DNA from: Enterococcaceae bacterium
GTDB lineage: Bacteria > Bacillota > Bacilli > Lactobacillales > Enterococcaceae
DNA length: 64,000 nucleotides
Assembly: GCA_022649665.1 (NCBI GenBank)
Contig: JALCOL010000003.1
Span: 124,001 to 188,000, forward strand
Direction: 5' to 3'
Position 1 is the first letter of the stretch; each line of letters starts with the position of its first letter. This document shows, piece by piece, positions 41,915-61,416 of the stretch. A model generated the notes under the pieces. The model ran no database searches. It was not told the DNA's origin and was given only the letters and a program-made list of their open reading frames with translations. The position numbers and the translations under genes are program-made.

Positions 41915-42307
41915 TTTGCTGCGGTTGTCGGGAAATCGCGCGGCTTCGGCCGTGAGGAAAGTCCATGCTCTCACAAGCTGCGATTTGCTTGTAGTGTTCG
42001 TGCTTAGTGAAACCATAAGCTAAGGGATCTGAAAAGATTACGGCAGAAAAACGCGCTAAGGTCCTTTGGGCGATGCGCAAGTATTCTTGAAAGTGCCACA
42101 GTGACGAAACAGCTTGAGAAATCAAGCTGGTGGAACGCGGTAAACCCCACGAGAGAGCAACCCAAACTACGGTAGGGGCGCTTTTCGATCGGAATTGAAC
42201 GAAAGAAAAGCTGGCAGTGATAACTGCCAGAGATAGATGATTGCCCTTGGAGAAATGTGCCTGCATTTTTTCAAGACAAAACATGGCTTATAGACCTCCG
42301 CAGCATC
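41915..42307 (+). ncRNA. rnpB: RNase P RNA, class B
   Basis: The catalytic RNA of RNase P, which trims tRNA 5' ends. Conserved stretches are visible: GAGGAAAGTCCATGCTC near 41954, the central AACCCAAA-type region with GTAGGGGCG near 42172, and a 3' ACATGGCTTATAGA near 42281. Ends TGCTGCGG (41917-41924) and CCGCAGCA (42298-42305) pair to close P1. It starts just after the gpsB stop and is followed by a terminator. Placement between gpsB and the ypsC-type methyltransferase gene is standard. Confidence 0.95.
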
Positions 42308-50216: not shown

Positions 50217-50911
<695 letters not shown>

Positions 50912-50940: not shown

Positions 50941-51870
50941 ATGATCATTCAATCGGAACGAATTTCGCTCAAACACTTATTGACTGTCGAATCATTATCC
51001 AACCAAGAAGTCATGGGATTGATCCGGCGCGGACAAGAATTCAAAAACGGCGAGCGCCCGCAGCTCGACAAAGAGTATTTTGCGGCAAATTTGTTTTTTG
51101 AAAATAGTACGCGGACCCATAAAAGTTTTGAAGTTGCCGAAAAGAAGCTCGGCATGCAGGTGATCGAGTTCGATGCCTCCACCAGTTCCGTGCAAAAGGG
51201 CGAAACGCTGTACGATACGGTCTTGACGATGTCGGCAATCGGTGTCGATGTCGTTGTGATCCGCCACTCAATGGAAGAGTATTACAATCAGCTGATCGAA
51301 TCGAAAACGATCACCAGCTCAGTGATCAACGGCGGCGATGGTTCCGGACAGCATCCGAGCCAATGTCTCTTGGACCTGATGACGATCTATGAAGAATTCG
51401 GCCATTTTGATAATCTGAAGATCGCGATCGTAGGCGATATCACGCATTCGCGGGTCGCGAAATCCAATATGCAGCTATTGAAGCGTTTCGGCGCACAAAT
51501 CTTTTTCTCTGGTCCGCAAAAATGGTATGACAGCAGTTTTGAAGCATACGGCCACTGGCTGCCGATCGATGAACTGGTTGAAAAGGTCGATGTGGTCATG
51601 ATGCTTCGCGTTCAGCATGAACGTCATACGGATGAAGAAGGAAAAGCATTCTCGAAAGAGAAATATCATCAAACATACGGCTTGACCGTCGAACGCGCCA
51701 AACGCATGAAAGAGCATGCGATCATCATGCATCCGGCACCGGTCAATCGGGATGTCGAATTAGCCGACTCGCTGGTCGAAGGCGTCCAGTCACGAATCGT
51801 CCGCCAAATGACCAACGGCATGTTCGTGCGGATGGCGATCTTAGAAGCGATCCTTGCCGGCCGACCATAA
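50941..51870 (+). CDS. pyrB: Aspartate carbamoyltransferase catalytic subunit
   Basis: A 309-residue enzyme joining carbamoyl phosphate and aspartate. The carbamoyl phosphate site [17 protein letters not shown] near 58 is normal for Gram-positive forms; [20 protein letters not shown] near 138 and [18 protein letters not shown] near 260 complete the active site. No regulatory PyrI is present, as expected for Firmicutes. AACAGGAGGC precedes the ATG. All catalytic residues appear intact, so carbamoyl phosphate is still needed here. Confidence 0.97.
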
Positions 51871-51884
51871 AAGGAGGAAACGAG

Positions 51885-53156
51885 ATGGATACACTGATCA
51901 AAAACGGCGTCTTTGCGCTCCGCGATGAGCTCGTTTCCGGCGATCTGAGGATCGAAGCAGGCGTGATCCAGGACTTGGGGCGCGCGATCACCCCTAAGCC
52001 GGGCCAGAAAGTGTTCGATGCCCGCGGCGCGTTGATCGCTCCCGGCCTGGTCGATATTCACGTGCATTTGCGCGAACCGGGTTTTACTGCGAAAGAAACG
52101 ATCAAAAGCGGTTCGCTTGCGGCAGCCCGCGGCGGTTTTACGACGATCTGCGCGATGCCGAATCTTTCGCCGGCACCGGAAACACCGGCGCTTTTCAAAG
52201 AACAAACGATGCGCAATCAAAAAGACGGCATCGTTCATGTGTTGCAATATGCGCCGATCACGCTTGGTCTGCGCAGCGAAGAGCTGACAGAAATGCCTGC
52301 ACTGGCACAAGCCGGCGCATTTGCGTTTACGAATGACGGTGTCGGCGTGCAGACGGCAGGTGTGATGTATCAAGCCATGAAGCGTGCTGCAGCACTCGGC
52401 AAAGCGATCGTTGCTCATACTGAAGACGATTCGCTTTTGTTCGGCGTCATGCATGAAGGCCAGAAAAACAAAGTGCTGGGCCTTCCGGGGATCTTGAGTG
52501 TCGCCGAGTCTTCGCAGATCGCCCGGGATGTTTTGCTGGCAGAAGCGACCGGCGTGCATTATCACGTATGCCACGTCTCCGCCAAAGAAAGCGTCGCGGT
52601 GATCCGCGCAGCTAAGCAAGCCGGGATCCGTGTCACGGCGGAAGTCACGCCGCATCACCTTCTGCTCAATGAAGAAGATATTCCGCGTGATCACGGCTTT
52701 TGGAAAATGAATCCGCCGCTTCGCGGAAAAGCTGATCAAGAAGCACTGATCGCCGGTCTTTTGGATGGTACGATCGACTGCATCGCGACCGATCACGCGC
52801 CGCACACGGCTGCCGAAAAAGAACAAAGCATGCGCAAAGCAGCCTTTGGGATCGTCGGCAGCGAAACGGCCTTCAGTCTGCTGTATACAAAATTCGTAAA
52901 AACGAAGATCTTCACATTGGGACAGCTGCTCCATTGGTTGAGCAGCGCACCGAGTGATTTGTTCGGACTTGATCGCGGCCGGCTTGTTTTGGGAAAACCA
53001 GCCGACCTGGCAGTCTTTGATTTAGCGCAGGAAGATACGATCGATCCGGCAAAGTTTTTATCGAAAGGGCGCAATACGCCATTTGGCGGCAAAGCGGTCT
53101 ACGGCCGGACGCTGGCGACTTTTGTCGGCGGCCGGCAGGTATACGGGGGTGAGTAG
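51885..53156 (+). CDS. pyrC: Dihydroorotase
   Basis: A 423-residue zinc amidohydrolase closing carbamoyl aspartate to dihydroorotate. Metal ligands: DIHVHLREPGFTAKET near 57, a VAHTED His near 178, HVCHVSAKESV near 226 and the catalytic Asp in CIATDHAPHTAAEKE near 301. It is the type I class found in Gram-positives. AAAGGAGG precedes the ATG. The next gene begins one base after its stop. Confidence 0.96.
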   Translation: MDTLIKNGVFALRDELVSGDLRIEAGVIQDLGRAITPKPGQKVFDARGALIAPGLVDIHVHLREPGFTAKETIKSGSLAAARGGFTTICAMPNLSPAPETPALFKEQTMRNQKDGIVHVLQYAPITLGLRSEELTEMPALAQAGAFAFTNDGVGVQTAGVMYQAMKRAAALGKAIVAHTEDDSLLFGVMHEGQKNKVLGLPGILSVAESSQIARDVLLAEATGVHYHVCHVSAKESVAVIRAAKQAGIRVTAEVTPHHLLLNEEDIPRDHGFWKMNPPLRGKADQEALIAGLLDGTIDCIATDHAPHTAAEKEQSMRKAAFGIVGSETAFSLLYTKFVKTKIFTLGQLLHWLSSAPSDLFGLDRGRLVLGKPADLAVFDLAQEDTIDPAKFLSKGRNTPFGGKAVYGRTLATFVGGRQVYGGE

Positions 53157-54257
53157 TTGAAACGTCTTTTGATATTAGAAGATGGTACCGTTTTTGAGGG
53201 AACTACTTTCGGCGCTGAGATCACGGTTGCCGGCGAGATCGTAATGACCAGCAGTATGACCGGCTACCAGGAGATCATTACGGATCCCAGCTACCACGGG
53301 CAGATCATTGCCTTTACAAATCCCTCGATCGGCAATACCGGCGTGAATCGCGACGATTACGAATCGATCGCCCCGATCTGCAAAGGGATCGTCGTGCAGG
53401 AAGTTTCCGAGTATTTTAACGGCCGCCGTGAATCACTGACACTCGATCAATATTTGAAGCATCAAGGGATCCCTGGGATCAAAAATGTCGATATGCGGAT
53501 GCTGCGGCGCAAATTGCGCGAAAAAGGCACGATGAAAGCCAGCATCGTCAATCCTGATGATGAGTTCCAGCATTCTTATGATCAGCTGCGGGCTACGGTA
53601 TTGCCGGGAAATCAAGTCGCTTCCGTCTCGACGATGAAAGCTTATCCTTCACCGGGAACCGGGATGATCGTCGTTGTGATCGACATGGGGGTCAAACACA
53701 GCATTTTGCGTGAGCTTTCCAAGCGAAAATGCAATGTGATCGTGCTGCCGTACAACGTAGAAGCAAAGCAAGTTTTGGCGCTCCAGCCGGACGGGATCCT
53801 GCTTTCCAACGGACCCGGCAATCCGAATCTTTTGAACGGTACGATCGAAATGGTCCGCGAAGTCGAAAAAAAAGTCCCGCTGTTCGGGATCGGTCTGGGG
53901 CATCAGATCTTCTGCCTGGCAAACGGCGCGAAAGTCCGCAAAATGCTCGACGGGCACCACGGCAGCAATTATCCGGTCGAAGAAGTCGCGACCGGCCGCG
54001 TCTGGTCGACCGCCCAAAACCATAATTATGTCGTTGAAAAAACTTCACTGGCCGGTTCGGATTTGATATTGACGTATTCCGAACTCAATGACCGCTCGGT
54101 TGAAGGTGTACAGCACAAAAAGGTCCCAGGCTTTTCCGTCCAGTTCGAACCGGAAGCGGCTCCGGGGCCGCAGGAAAGTCTGGAGATCTTTGATGCTTTT
54201 ATCGAGTTGATGGATGCAGAAAAGGAGAAGCGAAATGTCCTCAGAGAAAACGCGTAA
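53157..54257 (+). CDS. carA: Carbamoyl phosphate synthetase small subunit lacking catalytic Cys and His
   Basis: A 366-residue class I glutamine amidotransferase-type subunit. The N-terminal CarA domain (about 1-150; ITDPSYHGQIIAFTNPSIGNTGVNRDDYES) and the GATase fold are complete, but the nucleophile elbow reads FGIGLGHQ: Gly246 (codon GGT at 53892-53894) stands where Cys is needed. The C-terminal HPE box reads FEPEAAPGPQE, with Glu331 (GAA at 54147-54149) in place of the catalytic His; Glu333 is kept. Glutamine hydrolysis should therefore be lost. The frame is open and tightly placed (TTG start at 53157, 23 bp overlap with carB), so the gene is maintained and not a simple pseudogene. Confidence 0.93.
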   Translation: MKRLLILEDGTVFEGTTFGAEITVAGEIVMTSSMTGYQEIITDPSYHGQIIAFTNPSIGNTGVNRDDYESIAPICKGIVVQEVSEYFNGRRESLTLDQYLKHQGIPGIKNVDMRMLRRKLREKGTMKASIVNPDDEFQHSYDQLRATVLPGNQVASVSTMKAYPSPGTGMIVVVIDMGVKHSILRELSKRKCNVIVLPYNVEAKQVLALQPDGILLSNGPGNPNLLNGTIEMVREVEKKVPLFGIGLGHQIFCLANGAKVRKMLDGHHGSNYPVEEVATGRVWSTAQNHNYVVEKTSLAGSDLILTYSELNDRSVEGVQHKKVPGFSVQFEPEAAPGPQESLEIFDAFIELMDAEKEKRNVLRENA

Positions 54258-57200
54258 AATACTAGTGATCGGCTCCGGACCGACTGTGATCGGCCAAGGG
54301 GCAGAATTTGATTATGCCGGCATCCAAGCTTGTCTTGCACTCAAAGAGCTGCAATATGAAGTTGTCCTGATCAACTCGAACCCAGCCTCGCTGATGACCG
54401 ATCCGATGGTCGCCGATAAAGTATATATCGAGCCGCTCACGATCGGTTTTGTCTCAAGGATCTTGCGCAAAGAGCGTCCTGACGGTTTGCTGGCGACCTT
54501 TGGCGGTGATGCGGGGATCCGGTTGGCCAATGAACTCGAAAAGTCGAATCTGCTCCGTGAACTGGATGTAGAGCTTCTCGGGACTCCGCTGAAAAACGTC
54601 GCACTCTATAATGACCGTGAGAAACTGAAAGAGTTTCTCAAAAGCATCGATGAGCGGCTCTTGCGTTCTGCGGTTGTGACGGGCGAAGCCGAGGCGCTGG
54701 CCGCTGCGCGCAAGATCGCTTATCCAGTGATCATCCGCCCCGCACAGACCGCGGAAGGCAGCGGCAGCTTTATCTGCAGCAACGAGCTTGAGCTCAAAAA
54801 GAATTTTCATCAAGTCCTTTTCCGTTCGCCGATCCGCAAATGTATGATCGAAAAATCGATCGCGGGCTTCAAAGAGATCGAGCTTGAAGGAATGCGCGAC
54901 AAAAACGGCCACGAGATCATCGTCTGCAGCATGGAGAATTTCGACCCGGTCGGGATCCATCAGGGGGATTCGATCGTGATCGTTCCTTGCCAAACGCTGA
55001 CCGACAAAACATATCAGCTGCTGCGCAACACAGTGCTCGGGATCATGGAGACGCTTGAAGTTGTCGGCTGCTGCAGCGTGAAATTCGCGATCCACCCGCT
55101 GACTGCAGAATTCTACGTCCTCGAGATCAATCCGTTTATGAACCGTTCAGCAGCTTTGGCATCGAAAACGAGCGGCTATCCGATCGGTAAGATCGCCGCG
55201 AAACTCGCGACCGGGGTGCTTTTGACCGAGCTTGCCAATCCGATCGCTCCTAAGATCGGGGCGTTGTTCGAGCCGGTGATGGATTATATAGCTGTCAAGA
55301 TCCCGCGCTGGGCGAGCGATCGCTTTCAAAACCAGTCGCGCCAGCTTGGCACTGAAATGAAAGCGACCGGTGAAGTCGTGGGGTTCGGCCGTAATTTTGA
55401 AATGGCATTTTTAAAAGCTTTCCGCTCGCTGAATGTCGGGACGCTTCATCCGGAGGCAATCGCCGACAGCGGCAGCCATGAGATTTTCAAGCACGTCGTC
55501 AAAGCGCAAGATGACCGTCTGCTTTATTTGATGGAGGCATTGCGGCAAGGCTACACACTGGAGGATCTATATGAACTGACGAAAATCGAAGAGTTTTTCT
55601 TGGGAAAACTGCGCCATATCGTTGAGCTTGAAAAAACGCTGGCAACGCATCCTGATGACCTTGCGCTTTTGAAAACAGCCAAACGCTACGGCTTTTCTGA
55701 TGAATATATTGCCGAAAGCTGGCACACGACGCCGGACTTGATCCGCAAGTCGCGACTGGAAGCCGGGATCAGCGCGATCTTTAAGGCAGTCGATTCTTGT
55801 GCAGGGGAATACCCAGCGGCTTATCCATACTATTACAGCTGCTATGAAAAAGAGGAAGAGAGCATCAGCCGCGATTTGCCGAAAGTATTGATCATCGGGG
55901 CGGGACCGAATCAAATCGGTCAAGGAATCGAATTCGACTATACCACGATCCATGCCGTCAAAGCGGTCCAAAATGCCGGCTTTCAGGCAATCGTGCTCAA
56001 CAATAATCCCGAAGCACTCAGTACTGATTTTTGTGCGGTCGACAAATTATATTTCGGAGCGATCACGATCGAAGAGATTTTGAACATCATTGCGCTTGAA
56101 AAGCCGCACGGCGTGATCTTGCAATTCGGCGGACAAACGACGCTGAATCTAGGGCAGCATCTCTTGCGGCTCGGGATAAAGGTCTTAGGAACAACGATCA
56201 TCCCGCCGCGGCGCGGAGAGTCGCCGGATGTGATCGAAGAAGCACTAAGCGAACTGGCGATCCCGCATCCGATGGGAGGCGGCGCTGATACGTGCGAAGA
56301 GGCGCTCGCGATCGCGGAACGCCTCGGCTTTCCGGTGATTGTTCGTCCCCAGCAAGTTTTGGGCGGCAAAGGGCTGGAAGTCCTGTCTTCCAAAGAAGAT
56401 CTCGCACACTATGTGGCCGCTTATCCGATTTCGGCTACTGCCCCGGTCTTCGTTAATCGCTTCCTATCCGGTTATGAAGCGGAGCTGGAGCTGATCAGCG
56501 ACGGCGAGCACGTCATGATCCCGGGGATCCTTGAGCATATCGAGCGTGCAAGTGTCCATTCAGGCGACTCGATCGCGGTTTACCCGGCACAGACGATCAC
56601 TGAAGCTCAGCAGCAGAAAATGTGCGAATATGCAACCCGACTCGCTAAAAAGATCCGCTATGTCGGGATCATGAATATCCAATTCGTCAAACAAGGCGAC
56701 GAGATCCAAGTAATGGAAGTCAACACGCGCGCCAACCGGACGGTGCCGTTTCTTTCCAAAGTCACTGGGCTGCCGCTGGTCGCGATCGCGACACGGGTGA
56801 TCCTCGGCGAGAAATTAAAAGACATGGGGTACCGCGAAGGGTTGTATCCGCACGGCAAAATGGTTTACGTCAAAGCACCGGTCTTCTCATTTTTGCGCCT
56901 GGAAGCATTCAGCTCGCCTTTGGGTCTGCAAATGAAATCGACTGGTGAAGTGATGGGGTCCGATTATACGATCGACAAAGCGCTTTACAAAGCCTTTGAA
57001 GCGAGCGGCCTTCATTTGCCGAGTTTCGGGACGGCGCTCTTTACGATCTCAGACGACGATAAAGCAAACGCGCTGGAGATCGCGCGCCGCTTTTCGCAGA
57101 TCGGTTTTACGATCGTTGCGACTCCCGGGACCGCCGATTATTTTACGGCGCACGGCTTGATCACTAAGCCGCTGACGAAAGAAACGGATCCCAAAAATCA

Positions 57201-57408
57201 AGCCAAAAGTGTGATCCACGCAGTTCAAGAGCATCAAGCGCAGATCGTGATCAATACCGACAGCACGATGATCTCAAGCATGGAAGACGGGACTTATATC
57301 CGCCGGGCCGCCCTTGAAAACGGGATCCCGCTTTTTACTTCGCTCGACACCGCTTCTGCAGTTTTGAATGTGTTAGAAGCGCGCGCTTTTGCGACCGAAG
57401 CAATTTAA
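54235..57408 (+). CDS. carB: Carbamoyl phosphate synthetase large subunit, divergent N-terminal half
   Basis: A 1057-residue protein with two ATP-grasp halves and a C-terminal MGS-like allosteric domain (about 930-1057). In the first (carboxyphosphate) half the Gly-rich loop reads QTAEGSGSF (171-179) instead of the usual TxGGTGGG. The metal-ligand Gln is Lys283 (SVKFAIHP) and NPR is NPF (299-301); Arg168, Glu297 and Asn299 remain. In the second (carbamate-phosphorylating) half Q816, E828 and N830 and the VLGGKG loop are kept, though NPR is NTR. ATG at 54235 follows AAAAGGAG. Residue comparison is with E. coli and B. subtilis CarB from memory. Confidence 0.95.
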   Translation: MSSEKTRKILVIGSGPTVIGQGAEFDYAGIQACLALKELQYEVVLINSNPASLMTDPMVADKVYIEPLTIGFVSRILRKERPDGLLATFGGDAGIRLANELEKSNLLRELDVELLGTPLKNVALYNDREKLKEFLKSIDERLLRSAVVTGEAEALAAARKIAYPVIIRPAQTAEGSGSFICSNELELKKNFHQVLFRSPIRKCMIEKSIAGFKEIELEGMRDKNGHEIIVCSMENFDPVGIHQGDSIVIVPCQTLTDKTYQLLRNTVLGIMETLEVVGCCSVKFAIHPLTAEFYVLEINPFMNRSAALASKTSGYPIGKIAAKLATGVLLTELANPIAPKIGALFEPVMDYIAVKIPRWASDRFQNQSRQLGTEMKATGEVVGFGRNFEMAFLKAFRSLNVGTLHPEAIADSGSHEIFKHVVKAQDDRLLYLMEALRQGYTLEDLYELTKIEEFFLGKLRHIVELEKTLATHPDDLALLKTAKRYGFSDEYIAESWHTTPDLIRKSRLEAGISAIFKAVDSCAGEYPAAYPYYYSCYEKEEESISRDLPKVLIIGAGPNQIGQGIEFDYTTIHAVKAVQNAGFQAIVLNNNPEALSTDFCAVDKLYFGAITIEEILNIIALEKPHGVILQFGGQTTLNLGQHLLRLGIKVLGTTIIPPRRGESPDVIEEALSELAIPHPMGGGADTCEEALAIAERLGFPVIVRPQQVLGGKGLEVLSSKEDLAHYVAAYPISATAPVFVNRFLSGYEAELELISDGEHVMIPGILEHIERASVHSGDSIAVYPAQTITEAQQQKMCEYATRLAKKIRYVGIMNIQFVKQGDEIQVMEVNTRANRTVPFLSKVTGLPLVAIATRVILGEKLKDMGYREGLYPHGKMVYVKAPVFSFLRLEAFSSPLGLQMKSTGEVMGSDYTIDKALYKAFEASGLHLPSFGTALFTISDDDKANALEIARRFSQIGFTIVATPGTADYFTAHGLITKPLTKETDPKNQAKSVIHAVQEHQAQIVINTDSTMISSMEDGTYIRRAALENGIPLFTSLDTASAVLNVLEARAFATEAI

Positions 57409-57427
57409 ATTCAGGAGTGAAAAAAAT

Positions 57428-59124
<1,697 letters not shown>

Positions 59125-59136
59125 GGAGAGATGTTT

Positions 59137-59853
59137 ATGTACCCGCCGATCATTGCCTTGGATGTACCTAATCAAACCGCATTATGGGGGCTCTTAGATC
59201 AATTTGATCCGCAAGAAAAATTATTCGTGAAAGTCGGGATGGAGCTTTTTTACAGCGAAGGCCCGCAGATCATCCGCGCATTGAAAGGCAAAGGCCATCG
59301 CATCTTTTTGGATTTGAAGCTGCATGACATCCCGATGACGGTCAAACGCGCGATGACTGTCTTAGCGGCGCTCGGTGTCGATATCGTGAATGTCCATGCG
59401 GCAGGCGGCCGCGAAATGATGCGCGCCGCAAAAGCGGGACTCGTCGCGGGGACCCCAGCAGGCGAAAAAGTGCCGCAACTGTTTGCGGTGACTCAGCTGA
59501 CCTCGACTTCGACTGCGCAAATGAACGAAGAGCAAGGGATTCCGGGGACCGTGACGGAAAGCGTGCTGCGTTACGCTAAATCAGCTGAAATGAGCGGTTT
59601 GGACGGTGTTGTCTGTTCAGCACTCGAAGCCCAGCAGATCCATCAGGCGACCAGCGCGAACTTTTTGACCTTGACGCCGGGGATCCGGCCAGCCGGTACG
59701 GCGGTGAATGATCAAAAGCGGGTCGTGACGCCGGCAAGGGCTGTTGAGCTGACGAGCGACATGATCGTCGTCGGCCGTCCGATCACTCAAGCGCGCGATC
59801 CTTACCAAGCATATCTGAATATCAAAAACGAATGGAGCCGATTACATGAATGA
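59137..59853 (+). CDS. pyrF: Orotidine 5'-phosphate decarboxylase
   Basis: A 238-residue TIM-barrel enzyme converting OMP to UMP. The catalytic tetrad region [16 protein letters not shown] is near 59-74 (Asp-Lys-Asp), VKVGMELFY near 32, and TPGIRPAG near 183 with the phosphate-binding IVVGRPIT near 212. ATG at 59137 lies 9 bp after AAGGAG; an ATG at 59131 is too close to that site. It overlaps pyrE by 8 bp. Confidence 0.96.
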
Positions 59854-60499
59854 TGCTGAAAAAATTGCAGAAGACTTATTAAAAATCAAGGCGGTCAGCC
59901 TGAGCCCGCAAAAACCCTTTACGTGGGCGAGCGGTCTTCATACTCCGATCTATTGCGACAATCGGATGATCATGAGTTTTCCGGAAGTCCGTGATGAAGT
60001 CGAGGGGCTTTTCGCAAAAAAAATCGGCGAGATCTATCCGGAAGTTGAAGTGATCGCCGGCACCGCAACAGCCGGCATCCCGCATGCGGCTTTTATCGCT
60101 GAGCGTCTCCACCTGCCGATGATCTACATCCGCAGCAAACCGAAAGACCATGGGCAAGGCAATCAAATCGAAGGCCAGCTGCTTCCCGGTCAAAAAATCG
60201 TGATCATTGAAGATTTGATCTCGACCGGCGGCAGTGTTCTCCAAGCCGCCGCCGCTGCTCAAAAAGCCGGTGCCGAAGTTTTGGGCGTTTTAGCGATCTT
60301 CACTTATGAGCTCGCGCAAAGCGTAAAAAACTTCACGGAAAAAGGAATGCCGCTTTACGCATTGACAGATTATTCGACATTGATCGAAGTTGCCGCGCAG
60401 ACCGGATATATTGAAAAAAATCAGCTGGCCATGTTGAAAGACTGGAAGACTGATCCAACTGCTTGGTCAAAAGCGCACGCGCAAGAAGCTGACAAGTAG
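59846..60499 (+). CDS. pyrE: Orotate phosphoribosyltransferase
   Basis: A 217-residue PRTase forming OMP from orotate and PRPP. Motifs: [16 protein letters not shown] near 27, [18 protein letters not shown] near 72, [17 protein letters not shown] near 94 (the flexible catalytic loop) and the PRPP motif [17 protein letters not shown] near 119. Length and residues are typical. It is the last pyr gene; a LysR-type regulator follows after 23 bp with no terminator between. Confidence 0.96.
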
Positions 60500-60522: not shown

Positions 60523-61416
60523 ATGAACCTGCAGCAAATGCGATATGCGGTTGCGATCGCGAACAGTTCAAGCTTCCGTGAAGCGGCCCAAAAATTATAT
60601 ACAACGCAGCCTTCGCTTTCTCAAGGGATCAAAGACTTGGAAGAAGAGCTTGGAGTCCAGCTTTTTCTGCGCAGCTCAAAAGGCGTTCAACTGACTCCTG
60701 AAGGCGCACTTTTTGTCGAACATGCGGAAAGTATTTTGAATGACGCAGATCATTTAGTCGACCGCTTTCAAAATGCTCACTCAAAAAAGCGTTTTTCCGT
60801 TTCCACACAGCACTATGATTTTCTTTCGCAGATCATGATCAAGATCATGGAAGAATTCAAGGAGCAATATGATGAATTCCGGCTTTTTGAATCGACGACG
60901 CTTTCAGCGATCAAAGAAGTCGCCGATGATACGAGCGAGATCGGGATCCTTTATCAAAATGAAGAGAACCGCAAAGTCCTGCAGCGCTATTTGAATAAAA
61001 ATCATCTTGTATTCCATCCGCTCGGGACTTTTGAAACCCATATTTTTGTCGGCAAGCATCATCCGCTGGCCAAAGAAGCAGCGATCGAACTTTCGATGCT
61101 CGAACCGTTTCCGCAGATCCGCTTTACGCAAGAAGCGGCCGACAGCAATTTTTTTGCCGAAGATATTTTAGCGGTCCCCCAGAGCAAAAGTGTCGTCTTC
61201 ACGAATGACCGCTCGACGCTGATGAATTTTTTGACACAGACGAATGCTTACGCATCCGGCTCCGGGATCGTGACCGGTTTTACCAAAAAAGAGATTCGCT
61301 TGATCCCGCTCAAAGGCGCGCCAATCAACACGATGGGCGCGATCGCAAAAAAAGATCATGAGTTTACCCCGATCGCTGAGCGCTTTCTGGAACTTGCTCA
61401 ACGGATCATTCATTAG
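60523..61416 (+). CDS. LysR-family transcriptional regulator
   Basis: A 297-residue regulator. The N-terminal winged HTH (about 1-60: MRYAVAIANSSSFREAAQKL, then QPSLSQGIKDLEEELGVQLF) is followed by a helical linker and a periplasmic-binding-like effector domain (about 90-295). The effector is unknown. GGGAGGG precedes the ATG. It sits on the end of the pyr transcript but before a terminator. A T-N11-A palindrome at 61563-61578, upstream of the peptidase-transporter genes, is a candidate target. Confidence 0.85.
   Translation: MNLQQMRYAVAIANSSSFREAAQKLYTTQPSLSQGIKDLEEELGVQLFLRSSKGVQLTPEGALFVEHAESILNDADHLVDRFQNAHSKKRFSVSTQHYDFLSQIMIKIMEEFKEQYDEFRLFESTTLSAIKEVADDTSEIGILYQNEENRKVLQRYLNKNHLVFHPLGTFETHIFVGKHHPLAKEAAIELSMLEPFPQIRFTQEAADSNFFAEDILAVPQSKSVVFTNDRSTLMNFLTQTNAYASGSGIVTGFTKKEIRLIPLKGAPINTMGAIAKKDHEFTPIAERFLELAQRIIH

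Follow-up and report, generated by a model that had tools for sequence, protein, structure and literature searches.

A carbamoyl phosphate synthase pair with altered glutaminase and bicarbonate-site residues in a pyr operon of an Enterococcaceae bacterium: a possible pseudoenzyme beside an arginine deiminase route

A pyr operon from an Enterococcaceae bacterium encodes a carbamoyl phosphate synthase (CPS) whose two subunits, CarA and CarB, are readily recognised as members of their families and yet have lost residues on which the activity of such enzymes depends. This raises the question of how carbamoyl phosphate reaches the aspartate carbamoyltransferase of the same operon and why the pair is kept. 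We have examined the operon within a 64,000-nucleotide stretch of DNA, referred to as a whole as the window, together with the rest of the genome and a collection of related loci.

The small subunit gene, carA (pyrAa; 53157-54257, + strand), begins with TTG directly 3' of pyrC and encodes 366 amino acids. Its product scores 418.7 bits against TIGR01368 (cut-off 307.35), which places it in the CPS small subunit family, and 455.4 bits against the curated model NF009475 (cut-off 221). A glutamine-hydrolysing CPS carries a nucleophilic Cys in the GICLGHQ elbow and a catalytic His in an HPE or HPD box, and the window CarA has neither. In a HMMER alignment to E. coli CarA (chain 1c30_B, which carries the C269S mutation), Gly246 (codon GGT, 53892-53894, + strand) falls at residue 269, the position of the nucleophile Cys269, and the window's svqfepea is set against sfqghpea, so that Glu331 (GAA, 54147-54149, + strand) takes the place of the catalytic His353. 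Both substitutions, C246G and H331E in window numbering, are thus clean codons in an undamaged frame, as a preliminary description of this DNA had reported. Its further claim of an intact fold is borne out by an AlphaFold2 model built from 23 sequences (mean pLDDT 90.4, pTM 0.89), whose closest PDB structure is 1jdb_C (TM 0.93). The G+C content by codon position is close to that of the neighbouring pyr genes. A sequencing error, already doubted in that description, is rejected: the Cys is missing from 60 other distinct CarAs in our collection (61 of 141 with the window's own), and the His from 59 of those 60. From these residues, the loss of glutamine hydrolysis is very likely. Two other substitutions recur alongside the loss of the Cys: R268H (window CarA numbering) in the window, genus g15, genus g4 and the Cys-less clade of the Lactobacillaceae, and H272Y in the window, g15 and Siminovitchia. 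E. coli CarA itself has His at window position 268.

The pyr operon around carA, tightly coupled as first described, is intact and has the order leader, pyrR, pyrB, pyrC, carA, carB, pyrK, pyrD, pyrF, pyrE, all on the + strand. The PyrR-binding leader (attenuator) lies at 50228-50362 (Rfam RF00515, 54.6 bits, gathering score 54) and is followed by pyrR (50381-50911; NCBIfam NF003548), by pyrB (50941-51870; NF002032 and TIGR00670), an open frame for the aspartate carbamoyltransferase that consumes carbamoyl phosphate, and by the dihydroorotase gene pyrC (51885-53156; NF006837). Downstream of the carAB pair are pyrK (57389-58201; NF000799), pyrD (58198-59124; NF005574), pyrF (59131-59853; NF001273 and TIGR01740) and pyrE (59846-60499; TIGR00336). 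Each of these protein-coding genes scores over the cut-off of the models named.

The large subunit gene, carB (pyrAb; 54235-57408, + strand), overlaps the 3' end of carA; its frame opens at 54214 and we take the start to be at 54235. The full-length product belongs to the CPS large subunit family (TIGR01369, 1191.1 bits, cut-off 1027; NF003671, 1210.9 bits, curated cut-off 599). As both proteins exceed curated cut-offs, automatic annotation would label the pair a glutamine-hydrolysing CPS, and metabolic models would then credit the organism with a reaction that is probably absent. Of 288 columns that are invariant, in the sense of being shared by 98.5% or more of 57 canonical CarBs, 64 are changed in the window CarB; the leave-one-out maximum among the canonical proteins is 6. 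The N half accounts for 36 of these changes (of 145 columns) and the C half for 25 (of 114); the oligomerisation domain has 3 (of 18) and the allosteric domain none (of 11).

We also scored 25 CarB positions that we take, from E. coli work, to be catalytic, in E. coli numbering checked against PDB alignments. The bicarbonate half keeps eight of its 12 (R129, R169, G176, E215, H243, E299, N301 and R306) and carries G175E (Glu174 of the window protein, 54754-54756, + strand), N283S and Q285K (Ser281 and Lys283, 55075-55083, + strand), and R303F (Phe301, 55135-55137, + strand), and so lacks a canonical bicarbonate-phosphorylating site; Gln285 is a metal ligand. The lost Arg303 aligns to position 718 of human CPS1. 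Arg721 of the human enzyme was rejected as its counterpart, as it aligns to E. coli R306, which the window retains. The carbamate half keeps 11 of 13 positions (R715, G721, G722, E761, H788, N827, Q829, E841, N843, R845 and R848), with R675P and D753N changed and, outside the scored set, S717Q and Y718Q. The asymmetry between the halves is not significant, either at the scored positions (4/12 against 2/13, p 0.38) or at the invariant columns (36/145 against 25/114, p 0.66). The predicted model retains the fold (pLDDT 81.0; TM 0.94 to 1bxr_A), and its structure matches are to CPS and ATP-grasp proteins, so that CarB is not a carbamate kinase (ArcC) of the amino-acid kinase fold. Judged by its residues, CarB has likely lost bicarbonate activation; its capacity for carbamate phosphorylation is uncertain.

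Compared with E. coli CarAB, a glutamine-hydrolysing CPS II, the window pair shows full-length homology, the same pairing of genes and the same predicted fold (TM 0.93 and 0.94), but is without the glutaminase Cys and His and has changed bicarbonate-site residues. The preliminary description had also noted that vertebrate CPS I lacks this Cys; human CPS1 indeed has an inactive glutaminase-like domain in which Ser294 replaces it (PMC4655335). The window CarA resembles that domain, but CPS I functions as a synthase and possesses two phosphorylation sites, whereas the bicarbonate site of the window CarB is altered.

No further CPS was found in the genome (2.37 Mb, 26 contigs, 95% complete), in which one carA and one carB score over the family cut-offs. 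The preliminary description had suggested looking for a second carAB of the arginine type; none was found with the family profiles in this 95% complete assembly, and rescue by a second CPS is rejected on that footing. Carbamate kinase is likewise rejected as the source, with no ArcC match over cut-off in the same assembly. A second CPS or an arcC could be missing from the portion not assembled. Two carbamoyltransferases are present, PyrB and an ornithine carbamoyltransferase encoded directly behind an arginine deiminase. These last two genes, named arcA and arcB by their context, are adjacent on contig 11 (L180:9174-11431; TIGR01078 and TIGR00658 over cut-off), and an argR gene (TIGR01529 over cut-off) lies beside them on the opposite strand, within L180:9174-11938. 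It is plausible, from this gene content, that the genome has a route from arginine to carbamoyl phosphate with PyrB as its consumer.

The reading that we prefer, and to which we give about an even chance, is that the window CarAB is a CPS pseudoenzyme: it would make little or no carbamoyl phosphate, which PyrB would instead receive from arginine, through ArcA and then, plausibly, phosphorolysis of citrulline by the ornithine carbamoyltransferase ArcB, and the complex may be kept in the pyr operon for a non-catalytic role, at a guess binding, scaffolding or sensing. That last element is suggested by how strongly Cys-less CarA is conserved in other genera. For this reading speak the residue losses, the status of the pair as sole CPS, the specific acceleration of carA and carB set out below, the presence of arcA and arcB next to each other in the genome and the association with ArcA; against it stand the 11 of 13 carbamate-half positions retained, the frequency of ArcA in the family, a relative with ArcA whose pyrB is interrupted and the incompleteness of the assembly. 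Both ingredients are already known separately, inactive glutaminase domains from CPS I (PMC4655335) and arginine-derived carbamoyl phosphate from two organisms: Thermococcus kodakarensis, where it is used in pyrimidine synthesis (PMC13260591), and Eggerthella lenta, where 13C-arginine label reaches orotate and pyrimidines (PMC10234575). In T. kodakarensis the arginine route likewise feeds pyrimidines in place of CPS, but that organism has no CPS genes and its route begins with ArcE, whereas the window keeps a CPS-like pair and its first enzyme would be ArcA. In a literature that we covered in part, we found no report of a Cys-less bacterial CarA, nor of a bacterial CPS that has lost both glutaminase and synthase residues and is kept as the only CPS.

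The relatives with which the locus was compared were ranked by similarity to the window CarA, so the counts that follow are not prevalences. They comprise 167 CarA places, 163 of them with a neighbouring CarB (pairs were made by adjacency), and 141 distinct CarAs including the window's, of which 79 retain both Cys and His, 61 are Cys-less and one is unreadable. In the 61, the Cys is replaced by Gly in 58 and by Ala in three, and the His is retained in one (L131). Every Cys/His CarA with a complete full-length CarB (57 of 57) has a CarB that is canonical at all 25 positions; in 17 more the CarB is cut by the end of the stretch and its N-half positions are canonical, one (L077) has a CarB frame of 562 amino acids with a canonical N half, and four have no CarB, or too short a piece of one, in view. 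Beside the 61 Cys-less CarAs, CarB is altered in 54 (the window included), fully canonical in six (three Siminovitchia, one row titled Bacillus sp. and two of genus g4) and out of view in one. The notion that all Cys-less CarAs accompany an inactive N half and a working C half was rejected, as the C half is lost in the g15 and Lactobacillaceae sets, and is contradicted also by the six canonical CarBs.

The Cys-less state has changed at least five times on each of two CarA trees, both of which leave out the very divergent L138. In both, the window CarA joins the Cys-less clade of the Lactobacillaceae (98/95 and 95/89), which may be long-branch attraction between two long branches; a clade of the window CarA with its own family is not rejected (AU p 0.335). 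The family of the window, f1, is probably not the Lactobacillaceae, as it is the relatives of family f9 that group with rows of Weissella, Leuconostoc and Lactobacillus. A single origin shared with Siminovitchia, which has the same GIGLGHQ and FEPE, is not supported, Siminovitchia grouping with Bacillaceae rows in the trees.

Of the 13 genomes whose sole CarA is Cys-less and stands with an altered CarB, 12 have ArcA (G000, that of the window, G014, G121, G122, G123, G124, G126, G037, G052, G044, G134 and G136), against none of five with a Cys-less CarA and a canonical CarB (Fisher p 0.0007; by lineage 5/5 against 0/2, p 0.048; both post hoc), 'sole' being judged by CarA alone in all but the window genome, the one in which the number of CarBs was checked. 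In the family as a whole ArcA is common (58 of 105 genomes), and its excess in those with an altered CarB is weak (7/8 against 51/97, p 0.07). The exception among the 13, G027, has neither ArcA nor a second carbamoyltransferase, and its pyrB is split over two frames; in G014 pyrB is interrupted by an in-frame stop despite the presence of ArcA, which therefore does not always accompany a working pyr pathway. Both split pyrB genes (loci L122 of G014 and L126 of G027) lie beside a Cys-less carA and an altered carB. Of seven Lactobacillaceae genomes in which the inactive pair coexists with a normal CPS, two have ArcA (G135 and G138); it was not found in G131, G137, G139, G140 or G141.

A wider version of the pseudoenzyme reading, which we regard as possible but rather unlikely, is that CPS in several lineages of the Bacilli has repeatedly given up catalysis to regulate or scaffold the PyrR/pyrimidine circuit after ArcA-ArcB had taken over the supply of carbamoyl phosphate from arginine, the window pair being a full-length intermediate; in a bolder form, confined to this genome, the surviving carbamate half of CarB would be the carbamate kinase missing from the arcA-arcB pathway. 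If true, a textbook enzyme of central metabolism would have been replaced several times in the Bacilli by the arginine route with its inactive proteins kept, and the pseudoenzyme would have arisen stepwise, with the glutaminase lost first (g4 and Siminovitchia, whose CarBs are canonical) and the synthase later (g15 and the window).

The two subunits have diverged far more than the products of the other pyr genes compared. Mean identity of the window CarA to 21 canonical family members is 0.59, against 0.83 among those members, and for CarB the figures are 0.53 and 0.84. The same comparison gives 0.63/0.73 for pyrC, 0.50/0.62 for pyrK and 0.66/0.78 for pyrD (21 rows each), 0.60/0.65 for pyrF (20 rows) and 0.60/0.70 for pyrE (6 rows); pyrB, with one full row only, was left out. 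The acceleration is thus specific to carA and carB. Within CarB the drop is greatest in the N ATP-grasp domain (0.51/0.92), whereas the oligomerisation and allosteric domains have fallen least (0.50/0.69 and 0.51/0.69, respectively).

In other genera, selection on the altered proteins was estimated as NG86 dN/dS from 43 pairwise species comparisons, in which many synonymous distances are saturated and the ratios accordingly rough; the window organism has no congener in the sample. Cys-less CarA gives 0.007-0.061 wherever computable in the sets with altered CarB, 0.026-0.037 in Siminovitchia and 0.091 in g4, and the constraint is stronger than on the adjacent rluD or pyrR in several sets. Across five loci of the Lactiplantibacillus type, identity is 95-98% for Cys-less CarA and 81-92% for rluD, and Cys-less CarA is therefore not drifting there. 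Altered CarB gives 0.019-0.092 in Lactobacillaceae and 0.114-0.200 in g15, where it is mostly above the pyr neighbours. The altered CarAs of these other genera are under strong purifying selection.

Rapid change concentrated in catalytic domains, the relatively high dN/dS of carB in g15 and the split pyrB genes of G014 and G027 could also come from a decaying relic, in which supply from arginine has relaxed selection and CarAB is drifting, its frames still open, with no retained function. We consider this unlikely, given that the window frames stay open over 366 and 1057 codons after a long divergence with normal codon-position composition, that invariant columns are little changed in the allosteric (0/11) and oligomerisation (3/18) domains, and that the Cys-less CarA of other genera is so strongly constrained, in several sets more than the rluD or pyrR beside it.

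It is more doubtful that the carbamate half of CarB still works, either phosphorylating carbamate that arises non-enzymatically from ammonia and CO2 or running in reverse and yielding ATP from carbamoyl phosphate in place of ArcC, with the glutaminase and the bicarbonate half dispensable. Such activity would agree with the 11 residues kept in the C half against four of 12 changed in the N half, and with the lack of a carbamate kinase over cut-off in a genome that has arcA and arcB; in genus g15, where the C-half residues of CarB are largely lost, ArcC is present in all seven genomes with an altered CarB. A review also states that CPS can be replaced in vivo by carbamate kinase (PMC6022934). 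The C half is itself damaged, however, with R675P, D753N, S717Q, Y718Q and 25 of its 114 invariant columns changed, and the N/C difference is not significant (p 0.38 and p 0.66).

The least probable account is the one advanced in the preliminary description, that CarA is inactive and CarB uses free ammonia. In its favour, Cys-to-Gly is the type of CarA change after which the E. coli enzyme can still use ammonia, the window CarB has its full length and an intact predicted fold, and relatives with a Cys-less CarA and a canonical CarB exist. A CPS can use ammonia only with both ATP-grasp halves of CarB, however, and in the window the bicarbonate half is altered (N283, Q285, R303 and G175 lost; 36/145 invariant columns changed), ArcA is absent from five such relatives and present in the window genome, and no ammonium transporter matched in the genome. 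Of that description's 'structural or regulatory scaffold for an ammonia-dependent enzyme', the loss of the glutaminase residues and the retained fold stand, the ammonia-dependent synthase is not supported at this locus, and the scaffold passes into the pseudoenzyme reading that we prefer.

The ammonia scenario does fit, by residue content, the relatives with a canonical CarB. The CarA of Siminovitchia shares C246G/H331E with that of the window, and both lie in pyr operons, but the CarBs of Siminovitchia, of Bacillus sp. L006 and of genus g4 are canonical at all 25 positions and the five genomes tested have no ArcA. In each of three Siminovitchia genomes both the pyrimidine-type CarA (L005, L007, L073) and the arginine-type CarA (L213, L214, L215) lack the Cys, the arginine-type retaining the His, beside canonical CarBs, making these CarABs plausible candidates for an ammonia-dependent bacterial CPS. 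Genus g4 belongs to the same family as the window; its only CarA carries Ala and Gln for Cys and His, and both genomes in which CarB was read have a canonical one (L120:3781-8039 and L125:2950-7295). An ammonia-type CPS is plausible here too, as in Siminovitchia and the nearby Bacillus sp. A second carbamoyltransferase of 309-310 amino acids is encoded elsewhere in the g4 genomes.

A different arrangement recurs in the Lactobacillaceae, one that combines rluD with a Cys-less carA and a short carB (L014, L016, L046, L052, L065 and others). As in the window, a CarA without Cys and His stands next to an altered CarB, but these CarBs have 828-882 amino acids (complete rows), a piece of the carbamate ATP-grasp and the allosteric columns are missing, and the pair is often a paralogue beside a normal CPS. 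In the 11 such loci displayed, rluD is nearby in all and pyrR directly precedes carA in seven; in the Limosilactobacillus vaginalis and reuteri genomes read, the CarA of this locus was the only one found. The order pyrR-pyrB-carA-carB occurs in two genomes from another family (L131:4819-7646 and L134:3135-5992), with CarBs of only 583-585 amino acids, in whose N half S283, K285 and F303 occur as in the window.

Some isolated observations complete the survey. In G043 a very divergent second carA-carB lies beside rluD (L138:2750-6973); it departs from the invariant columns at 32 of 69 in CarA and at 167 of 288 in CarB. In G058 a Cys/His CarA (L124:3406-4503) has no adjacent CarB frame that we could find. 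Within the window, a LysR-type regulator (60523-61416; no specific model over cut-off) is encoded directly 3' of pyrE on the same strand, and an ordinary RNase P RNA of bacterial class B lies at 41924-42295.
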